Below are positions 21,054-32,363 of a stretch of 45,927 bases of DNA, piece after piece (position 1 is the first letter of the stretch; every line of letters starts with the position of its first letter). The stretch comes from Prevotella sp. (GTDB taxonomy: Bacteria; Bacteroidota; Bacteroidia; Bacteroidales; Bacteroidaceae). The position numbers and the translations under genes are program-made. The stretch lies in NCBI GenBank assembly GCA_017474485.1, contig JAFVHO010000078.1, positions 1 to 45,927 on the forward strand. The letters are read 5' to 3'. The notes beneath the pieces are model-generated. The model searched no databases. It had not been told where the DNA came from and saw nothing but the letters and a program-made list of their open reading frames with translations.

Positions 21054-21411
21054 TTTACCCATCACCCTACACTCAAATCTTCTGGAATGCCGATGTATAA
21101 AGGGATTGAGGCCAGTGTAGGGTCAGAGACACCCTACACTGACCCTTACCTTACCCTACACTATCTCGCTATTTTTCCGTAGGCAGCAAACTCTGATTCC
21201 GTAGGCTGCGAACTGGCAGACCGTGCCCGTCGGACTGATGGTTTGCATTAATGGTCTCAATTGCTAGTATTAATGTCTACTGGCGTTAGTGGTGATACCT
21301 TGAGTGAGGGGTCAGTGTAGGGTGAGTGTAGGGTCAAGAGCACCCTACACTCCTTTCAATCCCTTTATACATCGGCATTCCAGAAGATTTGAGTGTAGGA
21401 TGTGGGGTAAA
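21054..21411. repeat. Inverted-repeat element with 11/22-bp phased interior
   Basis: The outer arms 21054-21109 and 21356-21411 are inverted copies of 56 bp with 3 mismatches; the inner 44 bp (21066-21109 and 21356-21399) are perfect. The 246-bp interior is not coding. It holds several AGTGTAGGG/CCCTACACT motifs at 11-bp or 22-bp steps (for example CCTACACT at 21133 and 21155; AGTGTAGGG at 21314 and 21325), CCGT at 21177, 21199 and 21221, and ATTAATG at 21247 and 21269. Two hairpins (21114-21140 and 21325-21351) are built from the decamer. No transposase or promoter is seen inside. It could be a MITE, an invertible segment or a protein-binding array. From 21412 to 21538 I see nothing further. 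Confidence 0.85.
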
Positions 21412-23456: not shown

Positions 23457-25451
23457 ATGATGAGAAAATTATTGCTTTTGTCTATCATGATTGTTGTTGC
23501 TGTCTGTCAGGCTACGGCCTCAGAACGCACCATAGTAAAGCCTGAAAGCATATATCAAAATATGCTCGCTCTTCTGAGGACAGACTCCGTTATCATAAAT
23601 GATACGGCAACCGTATTCTATCTGCATATCGCAAAAAGGGATGAGAACGCAATCTTCTTCAGCCATGAGACCTGCCTAAGAGACATGAAAGGCCGCACCT
23701 ATCCCCTCCGTCAAATGATTTCAGATAATACTATCCATCTAGACGAGCCGAGGACATTTGATGATATTGGTAAGAATGTGTTTGAAGTACAATTCGTATT
23801 TCCGCCATTGCCTGTTGATGTGACAGAAGTAGACATGATTGAACCTCTGTTTTACAATCAAGGCATATTCGGCATGCGTCTTGATGGCAATCCCTTGCCA
23901 CCCTCTCAGTTACCACAGGAAATAGAGGGACGAATGAAAGAAATCATGGCTCAGCAAGACACATTGCCCAATATGGACTTTCGTTTTGGATGGGCTACCA
24001 TTAAAGGGCATCTGATGGACTACAGACCTAATATGTGCAGTCAGATGACACTCGTATTTCGTCAGCCGAACTCATCACCACATCAATATGGTGATACGCT
24101 CTGTGCTCAGGTATCGCCTACAGGTGACTTTACCTTCCGCATACCAGTTGCCCACATCACACCTGTCTCGCTGACATTTGAACCTTATCAACGAGGTAAG
24201 GGTATTGTCTATGTAGGACCAGACACAGAGACTGAAGTTTATTTCAATATGCGTGAGATAAACTATCGGTATATGAATAATAAGCCCAACAGCAGCACCA
24301 TACTCTACATAACGAAGGGTCCCTTGGCGCAATTGGCCAATGAGCTGAACGAGCATTTGTTTTTTTATAATATAGATTTCATCGTAAAGTACTTCGCAAA
24401 CATCTTCACGGACAAAGAAGAGTGGGAACGTTATAAGGAAATACAGGCGATGCAGCCTACCAAACAACTGGAACTGCGGATGGCTGAACTCGACTCCATG
24501 AAGGTTGATGAGCAATGGTCCCCAGCCATGAAGGAACTGGTCAGACTTTGCTGGCAGATTCAAGCAGCGATACGGGTATTTACGTTCCCCCCAAAGGAAC
24601 TGGAAAACGGGGCCAATGAATCCCCAAAAGCCAAAGAGAGGTTGATTGCCTGGCAGCGTGATGCGGTGGTTGCGGAATTAGAGTCCCTTGAGCGTCTCGT
24701 GAAGGAGCCAAAGATGATCTACTGTCCAAACCTGAGTGATTTATTAGATTTCAGTATTCGTGTAAATACCCTCCTCCCGCCTTTTATTGAACGTGAGAAA
24801 ACCGTTTGGAAGTTACTGGATAGGATGAGCAGTGAGTTCATGTTGCTTGACAGTGACGAGATTGCTGAAACGTTGGTCAATCTTCCTCCAGCCTATCAAC
24901 AATGGTTGCTGGCGTGGCAGGATATCTTCCGTGAGGAATATAATAGATTGGATGGGAAGGTAATTGTCGGTGATACCTTACAGGGCATTCCAGATTCGTT
25001 GGTCTTCCAGACGCTATGTGAACGCTATCGTGGACATACTATCTTCGTCAGTTTTTGGCGAGGGATCAACCCGACGTTTTTGAATCATGTAATTTTACCA
25101 TTACAACGTGAATTGGCTAACCTTGATATAGTGTGGGTGAATGTCTATAATAGCAATCTAAACCTGAAGTCCAAGTATGCAGGATGGGAAAATGCTAACT
25201 GGCTGCGTTATTTTACGAAATTGCAAGGCGAGCATTATTATTACAACATGCCAAGCCGCATGGACTGGATAAAGAGTTTCAATAAAACCATGGGCATCAG
25301 CAATTCCTTAGATGCCTATTGTATCGTTTCACCAGACGGCAGAATTGTCCGCAACAGCGATTCAAAGCCGATACCAATCTGTTTGATGGGCTATCAAGAC
25401 TACCTCGGCATCCGCCACTGCCTCTTCCAGACGGCTAGCCCTCGCAACTAA
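23457..25451 (+). CDS. Exported protein with thioredoxin-like C-terminus lacking CxxC
   Basis: A 664-residue exported protein starting MMRKLLLLSIMIVVAVCQATA (a second ATG directly follows). The N-terminal half is beta-rich, including a carboxypeptidase-regulatory-like stretch from about 180 (IKGHLMDYRP to FTFRIPVAH). The middle is helical and charged. The last 160 residues look like a TlpA/thioredoxin fold (RGHTIFVSFWRGINPTFL, DIVWVNVYN, SLDAYCIVSPDGRIV). Where TlpA has WCxxC, this reads FWRGINP with no cysteine pair, so redox activity is unlikely. It follows the M56 gene by 11 nt and is probably the output gene of the BlaI circuit, but its role is unknown. Confidence 0.75.
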   Translation: MMRKLLLLSIMIVVAVCQATASERTIVKPESIYQNMLALLRTDSVIINDTATVFYLHIAKRDENAIFFSHETCLRDMKGRTYPLRQMISDNTIHLDEPRTFDDIGKNVFEVQFVFPPLPVDVTEVDMIEPLFYNQGIFGMRLDGNPLPPSQLPQEIEGRMKEIMAQQDTLPNMDFRFGWATIKGHLMDYRPNMCSQMTLVFRQPNSSPHQYGDTLCAQVSPTGDFTFRIPVAHITPVSLTFEPYQRGKGIVYVGPDTETEVYFNMREINYRYMNNKPNSSTILYITKGPLAQLANELNEHLFFYNIDFIVKYFANIFTDKEEWERYKEIQAMQPTKQLELRMAELDSMKVDEQWSPAMKELVRLCWQIQAAIRVFTFPPKELENGANESPKAKERLIAWQRDAVVAELESLERLVKEPKMIYCPNLSDLLDFSIRVNTLLPPFIEREKTVWKLLDRMSSEFMLLDSDEIAETLVNLPPAYQQWLLAWQDIFREEYNRLDGKVIVGDTLQGIPDSLVFQTLCERYRGHTIFVSFWRGINPTFLNHVILPLQRELANLDIVWVNVYNSNLNLKSKYAGWENANWLRYFTKLQGEHYYYNMPSRMDWIKSFNKTMGISNSLDAYCIVSPDGRIVRNSDSKPIPICLMGYQDYLGIRHCLFQTASPRN

Positions 25452-25564
25452 TCCCAAATACACAGCGAAGACCCTATTGTGCGCTTTTTCAGTTGTTTCT
25501 TTTTGGGGTAATAAGAGAGTCGGACAGGTTCGATTCCTTCATGATTCACTCTGAATAATGACAT

Positions 25565-25603
25565 TGCGGACTGAAGTGGCATTGCTTCGGTCCGCAGTTT
25601 ATT
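25565..25603 (+). terminator. Probable terminator of the blaI operon
   Basis: TGCGGACTGAAG (25565-25576) pairs with CTTCGGTCCGCA (25585-25596), with one G-U pair and an 8-nt loop, followed by GTTTATTT. It lies 114 nt after the stop. Confidence 0.65.
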
Positions 25604-25607
25604 TAGT

Positions 25608-25975
25608 GCTTATCGCTCGTCGCCTTCGAGCGATAAGCGGATGAGCTGCGAGCGATATCCTTGATGAGAGGAAGGCTTACTATTAATAGATGCTATCTCA
25701 AGTATTAATAGTTGGAACTGCTACGATTAATAGTTACAGTTGTGATCATTAATAGTAATGATTGCGGATATTAATCGTGGAAAGGATGTCGCCTTACGGT
25801 TGTTTGGACGTCACTTGCAGGGGGAAAGTGACTCGTATACAGGGAGTAAATGACGTTGGGACAGGGAGAGAGACAGTCTCTTGCGAGTCAGCAGCGAGTG
25901 TGTCTTATATCAGCAGCGGCCGCTGCTGATATTGTCTGCGGGCGTGTCTGAAGTCGGCAGCGTTCGTTGCGTACC
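25608..25975. repeat. 22-bp lattice island with hairpin and 26-bp palindrome
   Basis: Non-coding. A perfect 12-bp hairpin (25608-25619 with 25627-25638) opens it. Then short motifs recur at exactly 22-bp steps: GAGCGATA at 25628 and 25650; ATTAAT at 25682, 25704, 25726, 25748 and 25770; CAGGG at 25818, 25840 and 25862; TCAGCAGCG at 25888 and 25910, with TCGGCAGCG at 25954. A perfect 26-bp palindrome spans 25907-25932. The sequence between motifs is unrelated from unit to unit. No gene or promoter is seen. The spacing is that of two DNA helix turns. Confidence 0.85.
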
Positions 25976-26024
25976 TAATTTTTATACGCTTATACGAAGG
26001 GATAGATATTTCACATAGAACGGT

Positions 26025-26312
26025 TTAGACTTTGTTCTTAGGATTTTTAGGGAACCAGCCTTTCTCTACACGCTTCTTCTGTTCGAACAGTTCTCCGATG
26101 CCCCAAAGAGCCGAAGCTCCAAACACACCGAGGAACGAAGACAGGTATATGTTCTCAATGAAAAGGGCTGCTACGCAACAGCCAATACCAACGAGCAGAT
26201 AGATAATCCAAGGCCGTGTGCCCCAGTAATATTCTGTCTTGATAACGATTGGATGCCAGAGACCTATCGTAAGAAAGGTCATTGCTGCAATAAGAATTCC
26301 TGTATAATGCAT
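26025..26312 (-). CDS. DUF4491 family small membrane protein
   Basis: A 95-residue protein with three hydrophobic segments: YTGILIAAMTFLTIGLWHP, WIIYLLVGIGCCVAALF, and SSFLGVFGASALWGIGELF. A basic soluble tail follows (EQKKRVEKGWFPKNPKNK). The pattern fits DUF4491, an uncharacterised Bacteroidota family. It follows mutY by 6 nt and is the last gene of the rlmL-like/dpp/serB/mutY run. Function unknown; the tail with GWFPKNP is a family hallmark by memory. Confidence 0.82.
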   Translation of the reverse strand: MHYTGILIAAMTFLTIGLWHPIVIKTEYYWGTRPWIIYLLVGIGCCVAALFIENIYLSSFLGVFGASALWGIGELFEQKKRVEKGWFPKNPKNKV

Positions 26313-26318
26313 ATGTGG

Positions 26319-27359
26319 TTATGTAAAGAGATCAGCTAACAATATTTCTATGAGGCGGGGTAGGGCGTAGTTGTCGATGTCCGCCTCTGGAATCCAGATG
26401 TAGTCAGAGGGAAGTGAGGGCCGCTTATCAGGCTCCCACAGATAGAAGTCGGCATAGAGGATGCGGTGGGTAAGGACGTGGCGGACGTTCTTACGAAGTA
26501 ATTGACAATTGACAATTGACAATTGATAATTATTCTGCGCAGCCCAATTGTCAATTGTCAATTTCCCATTATCAATTAACAACGGCTCCCATAGCCCTTG
26601 CCAGATATCGCCTGCACCACGACGATGGATGGCGGTCTGGCCCTTATACCTTATATATATATAGATAAGGTGGCGCTCACGAATCTTCAGGGTCTTCAGT
26701 TTGACGGGCAATTCCTGAATGCGATTGGTGCGGAAAGCCTCGCAACTCTCCATTAACGGACAGACTTCACATTTGGGTGATTGGGGCGTACACTGGATGG
26801 CGCCAAAGTCCATGATGGCTTGATTGTAGTTGGCTGTTAGCTTTTGGCTGTTAGCTTTTGGCAGCAACTCTTGCGCCATAGCGGCAAAAAGCTTTTTGCC
26901 TTCAGTGGTGTTGATGGGTGTGTCGATGCCGAAATAGCGGGAGAGGACGCGATAGACGTTGCCATCGACGACGGCAGCTGGCAAGTCAAATGCAAAAGAA
27001 CCAATGGCTGCTGCGGTATAGTCGCCAACGCCCTTCAGTTTTTTGATTTCTTCAATCGTATTAGGGAAACCACCACGGGCGACGATTTGGCTGGCTGCAT
27101 AGTGCAGATTGCGGGCACGACTATAGTAGCCCAGTCCCTGCCATTCGCGCAGTACTTCGTCTTCCGTCGCAGCAGCGAGTGCTTCAACGGTAGGCCAACG
27201 GCGCATAAAGCGTTCCCAGTATTCCCAGCCCTGTTTGACCTGTGTCTGCTGAAGGATGATTTCAGAGAGCCAAATGGCATACGGGTCGCGTGTCTGTCGC
27301 CAAGGCAGATTGCGTCCGTTCTCACGGAACCATTCCAATAAAATACTCGCAAACTCCAT
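26319..27359 (-). CDS. mutY: A/G-specific adenine glycosylase MutY
   Basis: A 346-residue DNA repair enzyme that removes adenine mispaired with 8-oxoguanine. The N-terminal HhH-GPD domain has NLPWRQTRDPYAIWLSEI, then LKGVGDYTAAAIGSFAF and the catalytic Asp in AVVDGNVYRVLSR. The 4Fe-4S cluster motif C-x6-C-x2-C-x5-C (from QCTPQSPKCEVC) is intact. The C-terminal NUDIX-like oxoG-recognition domain follows. The ATG at 27359 is preferred to an upstream TTG. Three heptad inserts interrupt the gene: one before NYNQAIMDFG and an inverted pair in the C-terminal domain (IDNGKLTIDN and NYQLSIVNCQL). Confidence 0.95.
   Translation of the reverse strand: MEFASILLEWFRENGRNLPWRQTRDPYAIWLSEIILQQTQVKQGWEYWERFMRRWPTVEALAAATEDEVLREWQGLGYYSRARNLHYAASQIVARGGFPNTIEEIKKLKGVGDYTAAAIGSFAFDLPAAVVDGNVYRVLSRYFGIDTPINTTEGKKLFAAMAQELLPKANSQKLTANYNQAIMDFGAIQCTPQSPKCEVCPLMESCEAFRTNRIQELPVKLKTLKIRERHLIYIYIRYKGQTAIHRRGAGDIWQGLWEPLLIDNGKLTIDNWAAQNNYQLSIVNCQLLRKNVRHVLTHRILYADFYLWEPDKRPSLPSDYIWIPEADIDNYALPRLIEILLADLFT
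26500..26579 (-). repeat. Two opposing heptad repeats in mutY (inverted pair)
   Basis: 26500-26534 has units AATTGAC x3, AATTGAT, AATTATT. 26545-26579 has CAATTGT x2, CAATTTC, CCATTAT, CAATTAA in the other direction, 10 bp away. Each is 35 bp and together they could form a hairpin. Both stay open in the coding frame. Confidence 0.85.
26829..26863 (-). repeat. Heptad repeat insert, 5 x 7 bp, in the mutY catalytic domain
   Basis: Units AGTTGGC, TGTTAGC, TTTTGGC, TGTTAGC, TTTTGGC. The coding strand gives KANSQKLTAN just before the conserved NYNQAIMDFG. Unit types match those at 18210-18244. Confidence 0.8.
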
Positions 27360-27373
27360 CGTTCTTATTTTTT

Positions 27374-27448
27374 GCAACGGACTACAGGACTTAAGGACTA
27401 ATTTGTGGCAGTATAATAAAAAGTCGTGTTAGTCCTGTAGTCCGTTGC
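27374..27448. repeat. Long inverted repeat between serB and mutY
   Basis: An 18-bp arm (27374-27391, GCAACGGACT then ACAGGACT) is perfectly repeated inverted at 27431-27448. Inside the arms GGACT recurs at 8-bp steps. It fills the 96-nt gap after serB, directly before mutY, and would form a strong hairpin in the mutY leader. Confidence 0.85.
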
Positions 27449-27455
27449 TAGAAAA

Positions 27456-28712: not shown

Positions 28713-30910
28713 TTCAGGTAGTCTTCGAAATACTGTGTGATACGTTCGTGCAGATGTACGCTGGCGTGGCCTCGCATGTTGTGCTCTTCGCCAGGATAAG
28801 CAAAGAAGTCGGGCTGTGTGCCAGCCTTGATGCAGGCATCGAGGAACGACAGACAGTGCTGCGGAACAACGGTGTTGTCGTTGTAGCCAGTGATAATTTG
28901 GAGCTTACCTTTCAGATTGCAGGCCTTGTCGATGAGGCTGGCCTTTGCGTATCCCTCAGGATTCTGCTGTGGTGTGTCCATATAGCGCTCGCCATACATG
29001 ACCTCGTACCATTTCCAATCGATGACAGGTCCGCCGGCCACGCCAACCTTAAAGACGTCTGGGTAGTTCAGCATGAGCGAGATGGTCATGAAACCACCAA
29101 ACGACCATCCGTGAATGCCCAAGCGATTCATGTCAACATAGGGCAGACTCTTCAGATATTCCACGCCCTTCATCTGGTCCTGCATTTCTATCTGTCCCAG
29201 TTGGCGGAAGGTTGCCTGTTCGAAGTCACGTCCACGATATTCAGAGCCTCGATTGTCGAGGATGAAGAGCACATAACCCTTCTGTGCCATGTAGGTTTCC
29301 CATGTACGACTGTACCAATGCCAGCCAGCTTCCACATTGTGGGCATGAGGACCACCATAGACATAGACAACGGTAGGATATTTCTTCTGCGGATTGAAGT
29401 TGTGGGGCTTCACCATGCGGTAGTAGAGGTCCGTCACACCATCGGCAGCCTTGATGGAACCACACTCGAAGATGGGCTGTTCGTAGCCATCCCAAGGGTC
29501 GGAGGCAGTGAGAAGACGGACAGCTTTTCTTGCAGCAGAACCGCCAGACACCGTAACAACATTGATGTTGCGTGGCTCAGTAGGAGCTGAGTGACGATCA
29601 ATGACGTAATTGCCTGACGATGACAGATCTCCATGATGAACACCGTCTGCTATGGTCAGCTGCGTCATCTTGCCATTGCTGACACTGACGCTATACAGTT
29701 GACGATGCAATGGGTGATATTTGTTAGCCTCGATGATGATGCTTTTCTGTTTTGCGTTAAAGCCCAATACCTCCTGAACAACCCAAGAGCCGCTGGTCAG
29801 CTGGCTTAATAGTTTTCCCTCCTTATTATATAAATAAAGGTGGTTGTATCCGTCGCGTTGGCTCTGCATGATGAACTTGTTGTTGTCCCAAGGCAGGAAC
29901 TGGATGGGGTTCATCGGTTCGACGTATTTGTCGCTCGTTTCGCGATACAGTTCTGCAATGCGTTCGCCCGTCGAAGTATCGTAAGACACCAGGCGACAGT
30001 CGTTCTGATCGCGATTCAGTTCGAACATATAGATGGTCTTGGCATCAGGACTCCATGCGATGTTGGTAAAATAGATGGGGGTAGAGGTGCCCACAGAGTC
30101 ACCACATACGGAACCAACAGGTGTCTTGAGATAGACGGTCTTGTTTGTGTTTATGTCATAGACACCTACTGTTACCACATGAGCATTCATGCCAGCCATA
30201 GGATACTTGTCAGGTTCATAAGTCGCTTCGCGTGGGAAGATGTCGACCTGCGGATAGTCCTGTACCATGCTCTGGTCCATGCGGTAGAATGCCAGACGTT
30301 GTCCGTCAGGACTCCAGAAAGTTCCTTTGTGGATGCCGAACTCATTTCTGTGTACGGCAGAACCGTACACTACACTGCGACTGCCGTCAATAGAAAGCTG
30401 GTGCTTCTTGCCCTCACCATCAACAACAAAGAGTTGATAGTCCTCTACATAGGCAGTTGCCCGTGAGGTTTTGTTCCAATCGTTAGCTGTCTGACCAGAG
30501 ATGCTGTCTTGCCATACAATCTCATGCTTCTTGAAGTCCAGCAACAAGAATGATTGTTTGTTGCCTAAAGCCACCAATGGCAGGTCAGGGTAGGGGAACG
30601 TGGCATTCATCAAGTGTCGCACATAGCGATTGGCCTCTTCATCACTATTAGCCCATTTGTTCACCTCGTCGAGTGTGAAGAGCCGTGTCTCTTTGCCAGT
30701 CTTTTTGTCTACAAGATAGCATTCTTCCACATCAGTTCGAACCAATTCGTCGCCCCACCAAGTCAACCATTTGTTCTCGGGCTGCAGGTTACGGTAGTTA
30801 TTGCCGCCGAAGTTCAGGTCCTCGAGGGAAAATAGCTTTTGGGCTGACATAGGGAGTGATAATGTGACAAATGCTATGATGAGCAGGTATTTAGTCTTCT
30901 TCATCATCAT
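28709..30910 (-). CDS. Dipeptidyl peptidase IV family serine peptidase (S9B)
   Basis: A 733-residue exported peptidase that trims dipeptides, typically Xaa-Pro, from peptide N-termini. The signal peptide (KKTKYLLIIAFVTLSLPMSAQ) is followed by an eight-bladed propeller and a C-terminal hydrolase domain. The catalytic Ser603 lies in GWSFGG, the Asp in GYNDNTVVP, and the His in EEHNMRGH. Three consecutive ATGs open it, and the gene overlaps the end of the methyltransferase by up to 20 nt, so they are probably translationally coupled. Together with the prolyl oligopeptidase at 7.0 kb it gives the organism two proline-specific exported peptidases. Confidence 0.95.
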   Translation of the reverse strand: MMMKKTKYLLIIAFVTLSLPMSAQKLFSLEDLNFGGNNYRNLQPENKWLTWWGDELVRTDVEECYLVDKKTGKETRLFTLDEVNKWANSDEEANRYVRHLMNATFPYPDLPLVALGNKQSFLLLDFKKHEIVWQDSISGQTANDWNKTSRATAYVEDYQLFVVDGEGKKHQLSIDGSRSVVYGSAVHRNEFGIHKGTFWSPDGQRLAFYRMDQSMVQDYPQVDIFPREATYEPDKYPMAGMNAHVVTVGVYDINTNKTVYLKTPVGSVCGDSVGTSTPIYFTNIAWSPDAKTIYMFELNRDQNDCRLVSYDTSTGERIAELYRETSDKYVEPMNPIQFLPWDNNKFIMQSQRDGYNHLYLYNKEGKLLSQLTSGSWVVQEVLGFNAKQKSIIIEANKYHPLHRQLYSVSVSNGKMTQLTIADGVHHGDLSSSGNYVIDRHSAPTEPRNINVVTVSGGSAARKAVRLLTASDPWDGYEQPIFECGSIKAADGVTDLYYRMVKPHNFNPQKKYPTVVYVYGGPHAHNVEAGWHWYSRTWETYMAQKGYVLFILDNRGSEYRGRDFEQATFRQLGQIEMQDQMKGVEYLKSLPYVDMNRLGIHGWSFGGFMTISLMLNYPDVFKVGVAGGPVIDWKWYEVMYGERYMDTPQQNPEGYAKASLIDKACNLKGKLQIITGYNDNTVVPQHCLSFLDACIKAGTQPDFFAYPGEEHNMRGHASVHLHERITQYFEDYLK

Positions 30911-32363
30911 TGAAACGTCGGTTGTTCTTTTTAAAGGATTTTTTGAAATCTCTGGAGTCTCTAGAATTTCTAGAATCTCTAGAACCTTTAGAATTTCTGG
31001 AATCTCTAGAGCCTCTAGAATCTCCAGATTCTCTGAAGTCGCGGGCTTTCTTGGGTTCTTTCTTCTCTAATGAGCGGAATTTGAACGAACGGATGTCAGC
31101 ATCAGCATTCTCCTGTTCCTCGTCCAGACGCTTTTTGAACTCGCGGTTCTGCTTGAAGCGACGCTTTTCAGCCATCTGACGCTTTTCTTCTTCCGTCTTG
31201 ACAACGCCGCCTTCCTCGCGGAATTCACGCATCTTACCGTCGAACATCTGGTATTTGCGGAATTCACACTCCAGCGAACCGTTGAATACGGGAATCTTGA
31301 TGCTGGGCTTTAGGCCAATCTGCGCAAAGCATTCCTCGCGATAAGACAGAATCCATGCCTCGTTGCCAGTGAACTGGTGTTTCAGTCGTTCGCCAATCAT
31401 CTTATAAGTGCCTAGCAGGTCGTTGGTCGAAATGCGCTCACCGTATGGCGGATTGGTTACCATGATGCTTTTGTTCTTGGGCTGGACGAAGTTTTTGAAG
31501 TCTTGTTCCTCAATGGTAATGTCACTGGACAAGCCTGCAGCCTTCACATTCAGACGGGCAGTGTTGACAGCCTTAATATCCACATCATAACCATAGATAT
31601 GGTGATTGAACTCACGTTCTTGAGAGTCGTCGTTGTAAATCTCGTCGAAGAGGTCGCGATCGAAGTCAGGCCACTTCTCGAAGGCATACTCTTTACGGAA
31701 CAGACCAGGTGCCATGTTGTGGGCAATGAGTGCCGCTTCGATGAGTAGCGTTCCAGAGCCACACATGGGGTCGATGAAGTCGGTCTCGCCATGCCAGCCC
31801 GTCATCAGGATCATACCAGCTGCCAATACCTCGTTGAGGGGTGCCTCGACAGATTCCTGACGATAGCCACGACGATGCAGCGATTCACCGCTGGAGTCAA
31901 GACACAGTGTACACTGGTCTTCGGCAATATGGATATGCAGACGGATATCCGGATTGGAGATACTGATGTTAGGACGCTGTCCGGTCTTCTCGCGGAACTG
32001 GTCGACAATGGCATCCTTTACCTTGTAGGCCACAAACTTGGAATGGCGGAACTCCTCAGAAAATACAACAGAGTCAACGGCAAATGTCTTATCGATTCCA
32101 ATGTATTCGCTCCAGTCGATGTCCTTAACGCCCTCATATACATCATCAGCCGATAATGCCTTGAAATGCTTGATGGGTTTCAGAATGCGGATGGCAGTGT
32201 GCAGTTGGAAATTGGCGCGATACAATAGTTCCTTGTCGCCCTTAAACGATACCATACGACGGCCTATCTGCACGTCGTTTGCGCCCAACTGCGTCAGTTC
32301 TTTCGCCAAGACGGGCTCTAAGCCCATAAAGGTCTTAGCGATGATTTCAAAATGCTGTGTCAT
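30891..32363 (-). CDS. THUMP-domain class I 23S rRNA methyltransferase (RlmL-like) with SR-rich tail
   Basis: A 490-residue cytoplasmic RNA methyltransferase. The N-terminal ferredoxin-like/THUMP region (MTQHFEIIAKTFMGLEPVL to about 160) precedes the SAM domain with DPMCGSGTLLIEAAL and the catalytic NPPYGERI of N2-guanine methylases. The length fits the single-domain RlmL/YpsC class. The C-terminal about 90 residues are charged and end in ten near-perfect triplets (DSR, GSR, NSR, NSK, DFR, ESG), encoded by a 90-bp nonamer repeat. The tail is likely disordered and RNA-binding. It has its own promoter (32389-32419) and is first in a probable five-gene unit. Confidence 0.9.
   Translation of the reverse strand: MTQHFEIIAKTFMGLEPVLAKELTQLGANDVQIGRRMVSFKGDKELLYRANFQLHTAIRILKPIKHFKALSADDVYEGVKDIDWSEYIGIDKTFAVDSVVFSEEFRHSKFVAYKVKDAIVDQFREKTGQRPNISISNPDIRLHIHIAEDQCTLCLDSSGESLHRRGYRQESVEAPLNEVLAAGMILMTGWHGETDFIDPMCGSGTLLIEAALIAHNMAPGLFRKEYAFEKWPDFDRDLFDEIYNDDSQEREFNHHIYGYDVDIKAVNTARLNVKAAGLSSDITIEEQDFKNFVQPKNKSIMVTNPPYGERISTNDLLGTYKMIGERLKHQFTGNEAWILSYREECFAQIGLKPSIKIPVFNGSLECEFRKYQMFDGKMREFREEGGVVKTEEEKRQMAEKRRFKQNREFKKRLDEEQENADADIRSFKFRSLEKKEPKKARDFRESGDSRGSRDSRNSKGSRDSRNSRDSRDFKKSFKKNNRRFNDDEED
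30951..31040 (-). repeat. Ten-unit 9-bp tandem repeat in the methyltransferase tail
   Basis: Units of TCTAGAATC type, 9 bp each, ten in a row. Each encodes a D/N/G-S-R-like triplet and keeps the frame. Near-identical nonamers favour length change by slippage. Confidence 0.9.

Follow-up and report, generated by a model that had tools for sequence, protein, structure and literature searches.

Two dispersed repeat elements with tandem 22-bp units in an intergenic region of a Prevotella genome

The locus described here raises the question of why several different motifs should each return at exactly 22 bp within one short piece of intergenic DNA, and whether they belong to a single structure. The region lies in a window of 45,927 nucleotides (the whole stretch of DNA that was analysed) between two convergent genes, a plus-strand open frame that ends at 25451 and a minus-strand DUF4491 gene at 26025-26312. 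An earlier note had described it as a new type of array made of four unrelated motifs, and when the motifs were re-located in the sequence the spacing proved exact for all four series: GAGCGATA lies at 25628 and 25650 (22 bp apart), ATTAAT at 25682, 25704, 25726, 25748, and 25770 (each 22 bp), CAGGG at 25818, 25840, and 25862 (each 22 bp), and TC(A/G)GCAGCG at 25888, 25910, and 25954 (22 bp, then 44 bp). Identity at lag 22 is 0.494 over 25608-25975, and in the autocorrelation check that had been proposed for the period none of 2000 dinucleotide shuffles equaled this value at lag 22 or at any lag from 5 to 79. Equal-length stretches of the 45.9-kb window have a mean lag-22 identity of 0.251 (sd 0.031), and the top five of them all begin within 25601-25606.

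Two elements placed end to end

The genome that holds the window (hereafter the own genome; 2.98 Mb, 73% complete) was searched for further copies. Instead of a single new array, the region contains two small non-coding dispersed repeat elements that lie end to end, one at about 25516-25775 (blocks A and B) and one at about 25774-25992 (blocks C and D). The description of a single array with four unrelated motifs fails because A+B and C+D are found apart from each other elsewhere in the own genome. At the core of each element, a few degenerate units of exactly 22 bp follow one another in tandem. The sequence between the motifs, which had been taken to be unconserved, consists mostly of such units: within a block the units are degenerate copies of one 22-mer, and between copies of an element the spacers are kept at 81-90% identity over 168-216 bp. 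What had been offered as a second possibility, a degraded but phase-locked repeat, fits degenerate tandem repeats within dispersed elements.

The A+B element opens with a leader (25516-25606, plus strand) that carries a terminator-like hairpin at 25563-25598, and parts of 25516-25626 recur with 80-89% identity on own contig C146 and, in genome G007, twice on C35 and on C68. Block A (25608-25659, plus strand) is built of GAGCGATA units spaced by 22 bp, of which the first is inverted, with a hairpin at 25608-25638; its unit also occurs in 22-bp tandem on own contigs C79 (L008) and C146. In block B (25674-25784, plus strand), a palindromic ATTAAT unit comes five times with a spacing of exactly 22 bp; further copies of the block are on own contigs C146, C216, and C218. 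The left half of the region (25608-25775) recurs as A+B on C146, leader included.

The C+D element begins with a left end and block C (25774-25880, plus strand), which holds three CAGGG units at 22 bp, followed by block D (25885-25972, plus strand), made of four 22-bp units in fixed order, the second of which is a 26-bp perfect palindrome (25907-25932). Its right end (25973-25992, plus strand) is TACCT and then a T-rich stretch, beyond which the copies diverge; this right edge is sharp in all 11 aligned copies except the divergent L028. The right half (25774-25992) recurs with 81-90% identity on own contigs C183, C96, C64, and C139, and C+D sequence is also present at six G007 loci, with left ends that differ in some copies. 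Relative to the other copies, block C of the copy on G007 C35 is longer by exactly 22 bases, and a G007 copy beside a gene that we take, from its Pfam domains, to be mutY is internally deleted, having kept its two ends and lost most of its middle.

Dyad centers placed by hand fall at 25623 (A), 25684.5 (B), and 25919.5 (D), which modulo 11 are 4, 10.5, and 3.5. Since A and D nearly agree and B is off, a single four-motif lattice with a common phase was rejected; the blocks have the period in common without a single shared phase.

The copies adjoin different genes and are, like MITEs, dispersed, multi-copy, intergenic, and without a transposase gene (C+D is on five own contigs and at six G007 loci). 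Their multiple copies, their whole-unit differences, and their absence from the few orthologous places tested point to spreading, MITE-like repeats. A tie between the array and its neighboring gene found no support in a comparison of 24 DUF4491 loci (own included; in three of them no gene could be called): a lag-22 array lies beside the gene in 0 of the other 20. The test is a weak one, as only four of these 20 gaps are at least 75 bp long and synteny mostly differs. Similarly, for one array of G016, a genome of the same genus, 19 loci were compared and none of the 18 that hold the neighboring gene has lag 22 on top; six of the gaps are too short for an array, no left neighbor was found in L325 and L333, and the left neighbor often differs. 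By eye, the left and right ends of C+D in the 11-copy alignment do not form an inverted repeat, no target-site duplication is evident in these copies or in the G016 elements, and a clean empty site was not found. The C64 copy has a left flank that is 97% identical in G007, where the right flank was not found next to it.

The flank just mentioned is shared by G007 contig C28 and own contig C64, where the 97% identity extends over 1458 bp and ends beside the C+D element; the mutY/serB region of G007, by comparison, matches the own genome at 80-85%. A recent exchange or rearrangement with its edge at the element is possible, judging from these alignments.

The earlier exclusion of CRISPR and of an iteron set holds. 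A CRISPR has near-identical repeats and unique spacers beside cas genes; here the units are degenerate and contiguous, and no cas family is among the Pfam matches of seven neighboring proteins. Iterons are direct repeats next to a gene for a replication initiator; no replication initiator is among the Pfam matches of the same seven neighbors (one of them without a match), and no similar plasmid record was found. Phage and plasmid records gave no match to the elements, and viral contigs gave none to the block D pattern.

The window holds other repeats. A second intergenic lag-22 array lies at 21147-21250 (identity 0.66, dyad p 0.097). AATTGAC-type heptamers in inverted arrangement occupy 26500-26582, inside a frame (26319-27377) that is presumably mutY-like by its Pfam domains, and the heptamer recurs many times in the own and related genomes. 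Another dispersed repeat with many own-genome copies is at 27362-27455, between this gene and one that we take, on the same grounds, to be serB-like. A CTAG-rich tandem repeat of 9/27 bp lies at 30947-31034, at one end of the minus-strand frame 30891-32363.

Spread and anatomy of the 22-bp arrays

The array is not one of a kind: arrays of other motifs on a 22-bp period are common in the own genome and in G016. Intergenic DNA of G016, of G024, and of twenty stretches from the genus was sampled without reference to any motif or known copy. In 200 kb of G016, 13 arrays were found at lag 22 and 10 at lag 44, with at most two at every other lag from 9 to 60. In 600 kb, the counts were 38 at lag 22, 26 at 44, and 24 at 66, followed by 10 at 41, 9 at 14, and 5 at 82, with 4 at 21 and 1 at 23; shuffled intergenic sequence yields about 0.07 arrays per lag. 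Of the 151 G016 gaps of at least 150 bp, 41 carry a lag-22 array. The peak is weak in 200 kb of G024 (three arrays at 22, three at 44). Stretches of the own genome, partly chosen around known copies, gave 15, 9, and 8 arrays at lags 22, 44, and 21, and G007 stretches, chosen around known copies, gave 9 at lag 22 and 9 at 44.

Beyond these genomes, the twenty genus stretches (253 kb, seven of them about 3 kb or less) held 10 arrays at lag 22, 11 at 14, and 9 at 21, the last two lags fitting heptamer repeats. In other families of the order, twenty stretches (270 kb, three of them shorter than 1.3 kb) held two arrays at lag 22, with no peak there. In the flanks of named loci, with taxon groups assigned by hand, Prevotella-type records show a modest excess (lag 22, 9 arrays; lag 20, 1; lag 23, 2; lag 14, 10; lag 21, 6), as do Bacteroides records (4 at lag 22, at most 2 at other lags), and the remaining taxa show no excess at lag 22. 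As the earlier note had expected of close relatives, such arrays are present in 8 of 100 genomes (own included), all of one genus. In the search with ATTAAT that it had proposed, three ATTAAT at 22 bp occur in 36 of 299 genus genomes, as against 2 at 23 bp, and the reversed word, used as a control, occurs in 7 at 22 bp and 3 at 23 bp. Unit motifs differ between families of arrays, and the 22-bp building block is common to them.

Three further observations concern related periodicities. Genomes G125 and G181 show expansions, with 40 and 47 exact ATTAAT lattice matches (three words) per strand, the next of the 299 genomes having 11. G016 has, apart from its 10 lag-41 arrays in 600 kb, a long 44-bp repeat at L057 (for example, L057 2483-2653). 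Finally, 22-bp minisatellites whose unit is palindromic and almost perfectly repeated occur at several places in a Thiotrichaceae MAG, a distant taxon (L146, L189, L190, L192, and L220).

The anatomy of the arrays was resolved best in G016. Expectation maximization over 41 arrays, picked by lag-22 identity, converged on one 22-mer, GACGCAAATTACAnGGTAATTT, with 12.75 bits as compared to 2.1 bits for one set of random intergenic pieces; 37 of the 41 arrays hold at least three such units and four do not fit the consensus. Variation is position-specific, column information ranging from 0.03 to 1.14 bits. A scan with this model recovered 61 arrays in 600 kb, of which 59 lie outside any called frame and 52 have 4 to 6 units (3 units, n = 5; 4, n = 13; 5, n = 31; 6, n = 8; 7, n = 4). 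The distance between unit matches is 22 bp in 303 cases and 44 bp in 208, and the next best distance, 45 bp, occurs seven times. Subsets of these elements are homologous over 170-230 bp with 66-90% identity, flanks included, which indicates that the G016 arrays, too, are copies of an element. Some end in GCGTTGCAA / TTGCAACGC, which could be the lattice palindrome itself rather than terminal inverted repeats. The orientation of arrays relative to genes (16 to 3 in 37 arrays, but 20 to 14 among the 61) was dropped as a candidate signal, and orientation along the chromosome showed no pattern by eye.

Palindromic units and the keeping of the period

The unit is palindromic in most families tested. 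Dyad symmetry exceeded that of phase-permuted versions in 10 of 12 array sets (p from 0/2000 to 0.007), a count in which D enters two sets and two sets share one motif. For six of the 12 sets, and in effect for own block B, it was the palindromic word ATTAAT that led to the arrays, such that the dyad result is partly built in; block B itself gave z 3.1 over 25651-25796 (0/300 permutations). Cleaner evidence comes from own block A (p = 0.0015, a set of three own arrays), the two block D sets (0/2000 for three other genomes, p = 0.007 for own and G007 copies), and G016, where 0/2000 phase permutations were as dyad-symmetric. Block C (p = 0.10) and the UBA2850 set (p = 0.078) are not significantly palindromic. 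At the level of single arrays, the dyad results are again partly built in for 102 of 173, which come from loci found through ATTAAT (80 stretches of at least 120 listed). Of the other 71, 36 have a dyad p < 0.05, three of which hold an ATTAAT lattice; 33 of the 68 arrays that come from outside these loci and lack such a lattice thus reach p < 0.05. It should be noted that palindromic 22-mers in tandem necessarily show two dyad axes 11 bp apart, which is one fact and not two.

The explanation that we favor, with a probability of roughly 0.4, is that these are spreading elements whose 22-bp period stems from a homodimeric DNA-binding protein. Such a protein would recognize each 22-bp palindrome, and recognition by a dimer could explain why motif families that are unrelated have so sharp a period of 22 bp. 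With a helical turn of about 11 bp, abutting sites would lie on one face of the helix, on which 3 to 7 dimers might sit side by side and bind cooperatively. The putative protein could be a mobilizing enzyme or a host nucleoid or regulatory protein, with a specificity that would differ between families and species. The earlier suggestion of docking sites for a repeated protein is a candidate reading that fits the palindromic 22-bp unit of most tested sets. A far-reaching version, which we consider unlikely, is a genome-wide docking lattice: hundreds of intergenic, same-face arrays of 22-bp palindromes would be occupied by side-by-side dimers of a putative DNA-binding protein whose specificity changes fast between species within a fixed 22-bp geometry, and which would act as a sequence-addressed nucleoid organizer or as a mobilizing enzyme that spreads its own platform.

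Complementarity across the dyad axis bears on whether the two halves of a unit behave as half-sites or as a stem. In the same 41 G016 arrays, it was 0.50 as compared to 0.47 predicted by column frequencies at distances of 3-10 bp and 0.47 as compared to 0.44 at 11-21 bp, with differences of -0.02 to 0.03 farther out. On average this is hardly above the column prediction, which suggests half-site rather than stem behavior; excesses of about 0.10 at the single distances of 4, 18, and 28 bp count against the protein reading. Block D pulls in the opposite direction. In 20 copies of unit 2 from five genomes (an alignment that leaves out the L014 copy), 94% of 200 cells are paired and 12 of the 200 are unpaired, double changes that keep pairing occur at four of ten pairs, and covariation is 0.140, a score that none of 500 shuffles reached (shuffled mean 0.079). 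Pooled D copies, L014 included, have a complementarity near the dyad of 0.551 against 0.466 expected from a column model that takes no account of the four units having a fixed order. The double changes and the pooled excess are both what a hairpin would produce, and they count against the protein reading. The block D results favor pairing, or else two half-sites that may have changed together between species. The two sets without significant palindromy, block C and UBA2850, also count against the protein reading.

The strongest rival to a measuring protein is a period kept by common descent. The elements would then be inert dispersed repeats, minisatellite-bearing and MITE-like, with a period that goes back to a single ancestral palindromic array and is maintained by unequal exchange and conversion between units, without any binding protein or function. 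We regard this as quite possible, if short of an even chance. Descent together with homogenization within arrays would keep the period without a protein, and the homology of G016 elements over 170-230 bp means that their fixed number of units may only have been inherited through common descent; both points weigh against the protein reading. Inert repeats would also account for the absences at the few orthologous places tested, for the whole-unit difference in the G007 C35 copy, and for the internally deleted copy. Nor is there a clear preference for gap type, by raw counts, among the 57 G016 arrays with both neighbors called (34 co-directional, 15 convergent, 8 divergent; 79, 38, and 34 among all G016 gaps of at least 150 bp), and an element of broadly this type, BrickBuilt, has been described (PMC4596501). 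Left unexplained by inert repeats alone, however, are the exact 22 bp in families without recognizable similarity, with 21 and 23 bp rare in G016, and the position-specific variation of 0.03 to 1.14 bits per column.

Nucleic-acid hairpins, whereby the units would act as RNA stem-loops in termination or stability, or as cruciforms or single-stranded DNA hairpins, are in our judgment distinctly improbable. The pairing, double changes, and covariation of block D unit 2 speak for them, as do the folding of A+B (z = -3.95), the mean folding z of the two strands (-3.1 and -1.9) in the 20 of 37 G016 arrays that were folded (mononucleotide shuffles only), and the two terminator-like sites between 25400 and 26100 (0.7 expected), one in the A+B leader and the other inside block D. 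On the other hand, the folding z of C+D is just -1.76, covariation in G016 is little on average, no Rfam match in the window exceeds the gathering score, good folding is expected of any palindrome, and stems need no single fixed 22-nt period. The protein is weighted slightly above hairpins for one reason only: unrelated sequences that share a fixed 22-bp period call for a ruler, which hairpins would not provide.

A further alternative, very improbable in our view, is that the elements are REP/BIME-like and owe their movement to a RAYT (Y1 tyrosine) transposase. Of 11 genomes, 7 (among them own and G016) have Y1_Tnp matches above the cut-off. Eleven loci were read among the 14 matches listed, and four of them (G016 L379, L384 on both sides, and L388, and own L386) have lag-22 arrays within 1.5 kb. 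Against this, the other seven have none, and no array abuts the gene in any locus read, the closest approach being about 200 bp, at L384. The inverted palindromes that directly adjoin the G016 gene in L379 are by eye a different sequence, and 41 of the 151 longer G016 gaps carry arrays regardless.

Relation to described repeats and significance

Bacterial minisatellites (VNTR) consist of head-to-tail units and their copies differ by whole units. The units described here are likewise head-to-tail, with copies differing by whole units; unlike minisatellites, they are strongly degenerate, have one period across unrelated motifs, show dyad symmetry, and number 4 to 6 in 52 of 61 G016 arrays. Porphyromonas belongs to the same order of bacteria as the own genome. 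The nearest described element found is the BrickBuilt MITE of Porphyromonas gingivalis (PMC4596501), an intergenic, multi-copy element of 23-nt tandem repeats, present in 19 copies in ATCC 33277, with a variable number of units, a leader and a tail, and long predicted stem-loops. It has one motif and IS5-family-like terminal inverted repeats, and its authors found it only in P. gingivalis and P. gulae. The same source notes 22-, 23-, and 41-nt tandem repeats in strain W83 and PgRS elements with 41-nt repeats, to which the lag-41 arrays of G016 may be compared (PMC4596501). The elements reported here resemble BrickBuilt in being intergenic and multi-copy, in their tandem units and whole-unit differences in number, and in having a leader; they differ in a period of 22 bp rather than 23 nt, in several motifs rather than one, in mostly palindromic units, in the lack of a terminal inverted repeat seen in C+D, and in an abundance of 61 arrays in 600 kb of G016. 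By eye, the C+D ends match none of the BrickBuilt/IS5-like terminal inverted repeats listed in that source (PMC4596501).

REP/BIME elements, according to PMC2817692, are abundant, extragenic, and palindromic, form regularly spaced groups, and keep the palindrome while the sequence changes, all of which holds here. In BIMEs, however, REPs alternate in orientation and REPs directly flank the RAYT gene (PMC2817692), whereas the present units run head to tail with an exact 22-bp spacing, and none of them adjoins a RAYT gene among those read. In the open-licence literature, as covered by top-ranked titles and the beginnings of abstracts, no 22-bp palindromic arrays are described in Prevotella. Within that scope, what appears to be new is that motifs which are unrelated and mostly palindromic share one exact period, at dozens to hundreds of sites in a genome.

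Annotation pipelines and predictors of small RNAs could mistake such palindromes for terminators or structured RNAs. Prevotella is an abundant genus of the gut and rumen, and the arrays bear on what the intergenic DNA of genomes that look like Prevotella contains, given that 41 of the 151 G016 gaps of at least 150 bp hold one. If one exact period persists through replacement of the sequence, there may be something that measures 22 bp, in which case a protein or enzyme should be findable, and a five-unit array would be a ready bait.
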